NCBI GenBank assembly: GCA_002784045.1
Contig: PFJX01000081.1
Span: 38,566-102,565, forward strand
Direction of reading: 5' to 3'
DNA: 64,000 nucleotides
Source of the DNA: Hydrogenophilales bacterium CG_4_10_14_3_um_filter_63_21
GTDB lineage: Bacteria; Pseudomonadota; Gammaproteobacteria; Burkholderiales; Thiobacillaceae
The position numbers were made by a program, and so were the translations under genes. Each line of letters opens with the position of its first letter. Position 1 is the first letter of the stretch. The notes under the pieces are model-generated. The model made no database searches and was not told where the DNA came from. It saw only the letters and a list, made by a program, of their open reading frames with translations. Below, one piece after another: positions 57,278 through 60,597 of the stretch.

Positions 57278-58801
57278 ATGAAACGCTTATTTGCGACATT
57301 GATGTTGCTAGGCTCGCTGGGGTTTTCCGGTGTGGCCCTGTCAGAGGATGCGCCGGCGCCGGCCCTCGCCGCCACGGTCGACGCGGCTACCGCCCCCGCG
57401 GCGGATGCGAGCGCGCCCAGCGCCGCCCCGGTTGCCGCCACGCCAGCGCCAGCGGCCGCCGCCCCGGCTCCCGCGCCCACCCCGAACAAGGGCGACACCG
57501 CCTGGATGCTGGTCGCCACCCTGCTGGTGATCATGATGTCCATACCCGGCCTGGCGCTGTTCTACGGCGGCCTGGTGCGCAGCAAGAACATGCTGTCGAT
57601 TCTCATGCAGGTGTTCTCGATCTTCGCGCTGATCACCGTGCTGTGGGCCATCTACGGCTACTCACTGGCGTTCACCCAGGGCAATGCCTTCATCGGCGGC
57701 TTCGACCGGCTGTTCCTCAAGGGCATCTTCGACCCGGTGAGCGGCAGCGTCGCCAACGCCGCCACCTTCAGCAAGGGCGTGGTGATTCCCGAGTTCGCCT
57801 TCGTCGCCTTCCAGGCCACCTTCGCCGCCATCACCGTGGCGCTGACCGTGGGCGCCTTCGCGGAACGCATGAAGTTCTCCGCCGTGCTGCTGTTCGCGGC
57901 CCTGTGGTTCACCTTTGCCTACCTGCCGATGGCGCACATGGTCTGGTTCTGGCCCGGCCCGGATGCGTATACCGACGCCAATGCGGGCGCGGCCGCGACA
58001 GCGGTTTCAGGCTGGCTGTTCCAGAAGGGCGCGCTCGACTTCGCGGGCGGCACCGTGGTGCATATCAACGCCGGTATCGCCGGCCTGGTGGGCGCCATCG
58101 TGGTGGGCAAACGCATCGGCTACGGCCGCGAGGCCTACACCCCGCACAGCCTGACCATGACCATGATCGGCGCTTCCCTGTTGTGGGTGGGCTGGTTCGG
58201 CTTTAACGCCGGCTCCGCGTTGGAAGCGGGCGGCACGGCGGCGCTGGCCTTCATCAACACCCTCAACGCGACGGCCGCGGCGGCGCTGACCTGGACCTTC
58301 GCCGAGTGGCTGATGAAGGGCAAGCCCTCCATGCTGGGCGCGGCGTCCGGCGCGGTAGCCGGCCTGGTGGCGATCACCCCGGCCTGCGGCTGGGTGGGCG
58401 TCGGCGGTGCCCTGGCGATCGGCGCGCTGGCGGGGGTGGTCTGCCTGTGGGGCGTGACCGGCCTGAAGAAGATGCTGGGCGCGGATGACGCACTCGATGT
58501 GTTCGGCATCCACGGCATCGGCGGCATCCTCGGCGCGCTGCTGACCGGGGTGTTCAACACCTGGGCCCTGGGCGGCACCGGCATCATCGACTACGTCAAC
58601 AACAAGGTGATCGACACCGAAATCGGCGCGCAGCTCTGGATCCAAGCGCAGGCCGTCGGTACCGCGATCATCTGGTCTGGCGTGGTGGCCTTCGTCGTGT
58701 TCAAGCTGATCGACATGACCATGGGTCTGCGAGTCCCGGAAGAACAGGAACGCGAAGGCCTCGACACCGCCAACCACGGCGAGCGAGCCTACAACTACTG
58801 A
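57278..58801 (+). CDS. amtB: Ammonium transporter
   Basis: GDTAWMLVATLLVIMMSIPGLALFYGGLVRSKNMLSILMQVF; HGIGGILGALLTGVF. Confidence 0.97.
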   Translation: MKRLFATLMLLGSLGFSGVALSEDAPAPALAATVDAATAPAADASAPSAAPVAATPAPAAAAPAPAPTPNKGDTAWMLVATLLVIMMSIPGLALFYGGLVRSKNMLSILMQVFSIFALITVLWAIYGYSLAFTQGNAFIGGFDRLFLKGIFDPVSGSVANAATFSKGVVIPEFAFVAFQATFAAITVALTVGAFAERMKFSAVLLFAALWFTFAYLPMAHMVWFWPGPDAYTDANAGAAATAVSGWLFQKGALDFAGGTVVHINAGIAGLVGAIVVGKRIGYGREAYTPHSLTMTMIGASLLWVGWFGFNAGSALEAGGTAALAFINTLNATAAAALTWTFAEWLMKGKPSMLGAASGAVAGLVAITPACGWVGVGGALAIGALAGVVCLWGVTGLKKMLGADDALDVFGIHGIGGILGALLTGVFNTWALGGTGIIDYVNNKVIDTEIGAQLWIQAQAVGTAIIWSGVVAFVVFKLIDMTMGLRVPEEQEREGLDTANHGERAYNY

Positions 58802-58884
58802 TCTTTCAGCGGCACGCGCTAACACCACGAAGCGCCGCAAGGACCAAGCGCCAAGTTAGCCTGAAATACCGCTAACGATCCACA

Positions 58885-58924
58885 AAATCCCCCATAAGCC
58901 TCAATGGCTTATGGGGGATTTCTC
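58885..58924 (+). terminator. Terminator of glnK-amtB
   Basis: AAATCCCCCATAAGCC-TCAAT-GGCTTATGGGGGATTT perfect 16-bp stem. Confidence 0.8.
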
Positions 58925-59052
58925 ATTGCCTGAAAATTCTTCCGCGGCAGCGGCAGCGCCCACCCCCGGCTACCCCGCCACGCCTCCAGCCTTCATTGGC
59001 ATCGGCGTCAGCTACTGCAAGAACCCGGCCAGGCCAAGAATCTACGAAAAAA

Positions 59053-59076
59053 TTGATCCACATCAAATTTGATGTG
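59053..59076 (+). promoter_or_regulatory. FNR/Anr-type box overlapping an 18-nt palindrome
   Basis: TTGATCCACATCAA (59053-59066) and CACATCAAATTTGATGTG (59059-59076). Confidence 0.65.
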
Positions 59077-59199
59077 TGATTTTCAGAACATGCAGCCCCG
59101 AGGTAAGACCCGAGGTACGAGTAACTTTCGACAGCCGGTAAGTTTGTACCGGAAACACCCCCCGCTCTTGCTTTGAAACGCGACATTGGAGGAGAAACG

Positions 59200-59412
59200 A
59201 TGCGCACCAAGCTCTTGTTCACCCTGGCCGCCCTTGGGCTGGCCGCCACATCCGCGCAAGCCCGTGGAGCCGTCACCGGAGAAAATGTCAAACTCTCAAG
59301 GCGTGGCCAGATCAGCATCCCCAAATGGGTGCGCGAAACAGCGCACCTTACCGAGAGGATGGAGTTCCTGGTGCCCTACCTGGACGGGCAAAGCTTTGGG
59401 CCACGTTATTGA
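59200..59412 (+). CDS. Small exported protein with AbrB/MazE-like motif
   Basis: Strong GGAGGAG; signal peptide MRTKLLFTLAALGLAATSAQA; then VKLSRRGQISIPKWVRETAHLTERMEFLV. Confidence 0.7.
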   Translation: MRTKLLFTLAALGLAATSAQARGAVTGENVKLSRRGQISIPKWVRETAHLTERMEFLVPYLDGQSFGPRY

Positions 59413-59427
59413 GGAAGGAGGAAACGC

Positions 59428-60222
59428 TCACTTAGCTGCCGGCTTGGCGGCAGAAGTTGCCTTAGCTTCAGCCACCATGTAATCCACCGCCACCTTGGTG
59501 TCGGCATCAGACAACTTTACGTTGCCACCCTTGGCGGGGCCACCAAAACTGCCGTTGATCGCGGCGTTGTACAGGTATTCCTTGCCTTCCTTGAGCAGCG
59601 GCGCCCAGGCCTTGGCATCGTTCAACTTCTGCGCGCCGGTCACGGCGGTGTCGTGGCAGGAAGCGCAGTTCTCGGCATAAACGCCCTTGCCGCGCACCAG
59701 GTCGGCGGCACTGGGCTCCAACTCCTTCTTCAGAATCGGCTGGAAATTTGCCCCAGCGGCATTGGCCATATGCACGATCCCACGCGCCACTTCAATGTCG
59801 GAAAGATCAGGGTCGCCGCCACGCGACGGCATCTTGTTGAAGCCCTTGAGCGCATGGTCGAGCAGCGTGCCATAACCCTGGGCGATCCGCTTGCCCCAGG
59901 CCGCCTTCTCCTTGAATTTGGGTGAACCCAGCGCGCCGGATTCATGGCAGCCGAAACAAACCTCGGCATACACGGCCTCGCCGGAACGCTCTGCGCGGGG
60001 AGCGTTTGGATCCACGGCCACGGAAACGCCGAATGGCTTGATCCGCTCGCGCACGGCTTTGTCTGCCAGGGGGGTCGGATCCGGCGTCCCCATACCGGCC
60101 CGCACGCCGAGCACCAGCATCACGATCAGGAAAATCGCCAGGCCCGGCGCGAACAATCCGCCCAACGTAGCCAACAAGAAATCCTTCGGCGTGGTTTTGG
60201 TCATTTCGATGTGATCGGACAT
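59428..60222 (-). CDS. Membrane-anchored dihaem cytochrome c5-family protein
   Basis: N-terminal TM; CFGCHESG and CASCHDTA. Confidence 0.9.
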   Translation of the reverse strand: MSDHIEMTKTTPKDFLLATLGGLFAPGLAIFLIVMLVLGVRAGMGTPDPTPLADKAVRERIKPFGVSVAVDPNAPRAERSGEAVYAEVCFGCHESGALGSPKFKEKAAWGKRIAQGYGTLLDHALKGFNKMPSRGGDPDLSDIEVARGIVHMANAAGANFQPILKKELEPSAADLVRGKGVYAENCASCHDTAVTGAQKLNDAKAWAPLLKEGKEYLYNAAINGSFGGPAKGGNVKLSDADTKVAVDYMVAEAKATSAAKPAAK

Positions 60223-60319
60223 GGCGAGCTCTTAGCCTGAATCAAGTTGAGTAACCGCGCGATTATAAGAGCAATGCCCCGCCGACCGAAAGGCTGCTGT
60301 GCTATCCTCACCGGCCTTC

Positions 60320-60396
60320 GCGCCCGTAGCTCAGATGGATAGAGTACTGCCCTCCGAAGGCAGGGGTCGCGCGTTCGAATCGCGCCGGGCGCACCA
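60320..60396 (+). tRNA. tRNA-Arg (anticodon CCG)
   Basis: GCGCCCG...CGGGCGC acceptor, CTGCC-CTCCGAA-GGCAG anticodon arm, GCGCG-TTCGAAT-CGCGC T arm, encoded CCA. Confidence 0.96.
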
Positions 60397-60597
60397 ATAG
60401 AATCAAAGAACGAACGGTTCTTGCCTGACGCAGGCCATTGCAGTGGATCACCGAGCCAACATCTGGCTTCTCTCGGCTTCATCGTGGAAATAAAACTGCG
60501 CGGCGGCAGGCCAATCGCACACGAAGCCGTGCATACACTGGCAAGGCGCGGTATTTCTGGCTAAGAATTCAAGCTTTCAACTTTGTTGAGTTGCGTC

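Follow-up and report, generated by a model that had tools for sequence, protein, structure and literature searches.

The short open reading frame (ORF) flanked by amtB on one side and a cytochrome c gene on the other in the 64-kb stretch of DNA analysed here (the window) is best explained, with a probability of about 0.84, as a chance fccA-vapB chimera, a gene relic and not a periplasmic regulator. It runs on the forward strand from an ATG at 59200 to a TGA at 59410-59412, has a GGAGGAG Shine-Dalgarno sequence directly 5' of the ATG, and encodes 70 residues, MRTKLLFTLAALGLAATSAQARGAVTGENVKLSRRGQISIPKWVRETAHLTERMEFLVPYLDGQSFGPRY. The original prediction of a 70-residue protein with a signal peptide was confirmed. 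The peptide starts with MRTK, has a mean hydropathy of 1.9 over residues 5-18 and ends in an AQA cleavage site, and thus carries the positive N-terminus, hydrophobic core and AXA site typical of Sec export. Homology of its two parts shows, at the level of sequence, that the ORF originated as an fccA-vapB chimera, which is now probably a non-functional relic.

Table 1. Features of the chimeric ORF and its surroundings (window positions).
Feature	Position	Strand	Basis
FNR/Anr-type box TTGATCCACATCAA, inherited from the fccA promoter	59053..59066	+	unique in window and conserved in relatives
18-nt perfect palindrome CACATCAAATTTGATGTG, overlapping the box	59059..59076	.	not conserved
Leader and ribosome-binding site, homologous to fccA leaders	59067..59199	+	DNA similarity
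Whole chimeric ORF, 70 aa	59200..59412	+	sequence reading
Signal-peptide codons, homologous to fccA (MRTKLLFTLAALGLAATSAQA vs MRYKLLIAMAAFGLVATSAQA)	59200..59262	+	DNA identity
Truncated vapB: ~24 nt of vapB 5'UTR and codons 2-38	59265..59392	+	DNA identity
Tail SFGPRY and stop, closing the chimeric ORF	59393..59412	+	non-homologous
Two-domain c-type cytochrome gene, convergent	59428-60222	-	neighbour of the ORF

When the promoter and signal-peptide region was searched as DNA, the matches fell at the beginning of a gene for a diheme cytochrome in several congeners, with 79% identity over 63 nt to one locus (L010) and 79% over 70 nt, ribosome-binding site included, to another (L009). Leader and signal peptide together resemble those of fccA in nine or more loci of relatives, and the box is correspondingly placed in most of these. 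The best profile matches of the parent gene are heme subunits of flavocytochrome c (3vrd_A, E = 8.5e-34; 1fcd_C, E = 6.7e-31), and sequence comparison shows the parent to be fccA, the diheme subunit of flavocytochrome c sulfide dehydrogenase, of Thiobacillus-like relatives. The ORF itself contains no cysteine and hence no CXXCH heme motif. The same genome retains three closest fccA paralogues: no box was found at two of them (L081, L090), and the 200 nt upstream of the third (L077) show none either; the boxed fccA start therefore seems to survive only in the chimera.

The FNR-type box had likewise been predicted, and it stands as a conserved element of the relatives' fccA promoters. TTGATCCACATCAA is the sole perfect match to TTGAT-N4-ATCAA in the window, where shuffled sequences give an expectation of 0.02. 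Many relatives carry the same box 95-157 nt 5' of the fccA ATG. A slightly looser pattern located it 5' of 25 of the 42 best named loci, among which are records of Thiobacillus, Hydrogenophilales and Parasulfuritortus. It is also seen in the fccA leaders of L010, L011, L015, L067, L074, L080 and others. The window and L074 agree in their box-to-ATG distance, 147 nt; the window leader resembles the longer leader type of that locus and has the segment CGCGACATTGGAGGAGA in common with it. As a candidate -10 element at class II spacing, TACTAT can be read 23 nt past the box in several relatives, a place where the window has no TANNNT. At one further locus (L152:2051-4902) a Crp/Fnr-type regulator gene directly precedes the box, which in turn lies upstream of fccA, and fccA is followed there by a flavoprotein-type fccB ORF, the identities of regulator and flavoprotein being taken from a reading of the translations. 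The 18-nt palindrome overlapping the box is present as described, but it is not conserved: it was not found in the homologous fccA leaders, and the box combined with the second arm of the palindrome occurs in this genome only among 23 of the genus. The palindrome is probably coincidental, and for want of conservation a role as an operator was rejected. An Rfam search of positions 58700-60500 returned no regulatory RNA, the only match being a tRNA at 60320-60393.

The remainder of the ORF derives from a different gene. A segment of 128 nt shares 75% DNA identity with vapB of L003 and L008, and 73% with that of L002. The closest intact relatives, L002 and L003, belong to the same genus and encode an 89-residue VapB (METVKLSSRGQIVIPKDVRETAHL...) without a signal peptide, immediately followed by the PIN-domain gene vapC. 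The vapB start codon has been lost (GTG GAA ACC in L003 vs GGA GAA AAT in the window). There is no PIN-domain toxin gene beside the ORF, the next gene being the convergent cytochrome c gene. Profile searches matched the ORF to Pfam MazE_antitoxin (PF04014) with E = 0.028 and 14.8 bits, below the cut-off of 24.7, and to TIGR01439 (AbrB) with E = 8e-5 and 22.3 bits, below the cut-off of 28.3; the intact relatives score 35.0-36.9 bits on PF04014. The AbrB resemblance is thus real but sub-threshold. The likeness to AbrB/MazE noted in the original prediction reflects true kinship of the protein's body, but this body is a piece of vapB that has been cut short before the last strand and carries substitutions. 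No match to the final 20 nt of the ORF was found in the loci of relatives or elsewhere in the genome, and an origin of this tail from the fccA 3' end or from the neighbouring genes was rejected for lack of similarity. Decay of the same vapBC family was also observed in a congener (G013, contig C44, locus L126), where vapB has lost its N-terminal half, vapC is disrupted and a palindromic repeat, GGTGGATAAGCGAAGCGCATCCACC, precedes the decayed vapB; the break there falls near the codon at which the window fragment ends.

Similarity to fccA ends at 59262 and similarity to vapB starts at 59265, which places the joint within a few bases, at ~59264. The cytochrome gene, which faces amtB in the window, adjoins a UvrD/Rep-type helicase gene (named from a reading of translations) in most of 17 relatives, and the neighbours of amtB differ among relatives; within the stretch fetched, amtB was not found beside the cytochrome gene in any of the 17. 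As both genes have other neighbours in relatives, the interval between them marks a rearrangement breakpoint. Illegitimate recombination or a deletion at this point, in a Thiobacillus-like betaproteobacterium, would have brought together the start of fccA, with its FNR box, leader, ribosome-binding site and signal peptide, and the 5'UTR and first ~38 codons of vapB, joined in frame by chance. FNR/Anr may still drive transcription of the chimera at low oxygen. The short product, if any is made, would be exported by Sec and then degraded, since its AbrB fold is unlikely to be intact.

Comparison of the vapB part with L003 gave dN = 0.185 and dS = 1.07, against dN = 0.012 and dS = 0.81 between L002 and L003, and the corresponding ratios of nonsynonymous to synonymous changes are 14:14 and 1:13. 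The excess of replacements is significant by Fisher's test for L003 (p = 0.007) and L002 (p = 0.03), in a sample of only 36 codons. Two of the nine residues that are invariant in 14 VapBs have been replaced (T3N and G27R); L151, which contains a stop codon, was left out of the alignments. A proline has been introduced into the third strand, and the sequence stops before the last strand, so that the swapped-hairpin domain is incomplete. Consistent with this, AlphaFold modelled the ORF with a mean pLDDT of 51, one short helix, two strand bridges and no strands after the helix, whereas an intact VapB modelled in the same way yielded a pLDDT of 77 and the full AbrB strand-helix pattern. The predicted fold is accordingly not AbrB-like, contrary to the original prediction, and constraint and modelling together suggest that AbrB fold and function have been lost. 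However, some features count against a relic: the frame is open over 70 codons, a good hydrophobic core and the AXA site persist in the signal peptide, and dN/dS is below 1 overall. Most of the divergence behind this last value probably predates the fusion. When neutral change was simulated at 0.15 per site, with substitutions only and no indels, the frame stayed open in ~40% of runs, and an open frame is therefore weak evidence of use.

The whole ORF, used first as a query against the genome collection, gave no match. Searched against 101 related genomes and next against 399 of the order, the ORF matched only normal AbrB/MazE-type antitoxins with no preceding signal peptide, and among ~480 related genomes none has the signal peptide-AbrB layout, which was seen in the window genome only. 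These results bear directly on the view that the ORF belongs to a true family of exported, periplasmic AbrB/MazE-like proteins. The sub-threshold AbrB profile matches and the clean signal peptide speak for such a family, but every homologue found for the body lacks a signal peptide and looks like a cytoplasmic antitoxin, leader and signal peptide have their confident homologues in cytochrome genes, and the fold appears to be lost. The separate ancestries of the two halves largely refute this view, which we regard as very improbable; an exported AbrB-fold protein with a role of its own is not supported, because its signal peptide and promoter belong to fccA and no relative has the layout. Just as improbable is an artefact of assembly or binning that joined fccA and vapB sequence within the contig. 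The genome is a draft of 174 contigs and sequences of two origins do meet at the junction; however, both halves have diverged by 21-27% from every intact copy found, and no second copy of the leader or of the vapB fragment was found in the genome, which leaves no intact copies to be joined wrongly. The vapB part, moreover, carries replacements of its own and no longer has a start codon.

Somewhat more credible, though still unlikely, is a newborn gene, in which a vapB fragment came under an oxygen-controlled promoter, acquired a Sec signal and now yields an exported peptide with some use in the envelope at low oxygen. Such a gene would account for the open frame, for the intact signal peptide, ribosome-binding site and FNR box, and for a junction that is in frame and directly follows the signal-peptidase site. 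It fits poorly with the occurrence in one genome only, the excess of replacements, which includes invariant sites, and the lack of a confident fold. We therefore favour the chance chimera that has become a relic.

The puzzling annotation of a 'periplasmic AbrB protein' is thereby explained as the joint of two broken genes, which is a neat solution of a puzzle and not a new system. It illustrates clearly how a signal peptide together with a regulated promoter can by chance become joined to a coding fragment of other origin, and new exported proteins could begin in this way. No paper on signal-peptide/AbrB fusions was found in the titles and abstracts of the open-access literature, and the same holds for FNR control of fccAB in Thiobacillus. 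As a by-product, the analysis shows that an FNR-type box is conserved 5' of fccAB in Thiobacillus-like bacteria, which makes oxygen control of sulfide oxidation in them a testable prediction.

Compared with fccA (PDB codes 1fcd chain C and 3vrd chain A), the chimera has the same FNR box, leader, ribosome-binding site and signal peptide, but lacks the mature cytochrome with its heme motif, and fccB. Compared with a VapB that has an AbrB/MazE (SpoVT/AbrB-like) N-terminal domain (PF04014), it retains a piece of the 5'UTR and codons 2-38 at ~75% DNA identity, whereas the start codon, the last strand, the toxin-binding C-terminal half and vapC are missing, T3 and G27 are changed, and a signal peptide precedes the fragment.
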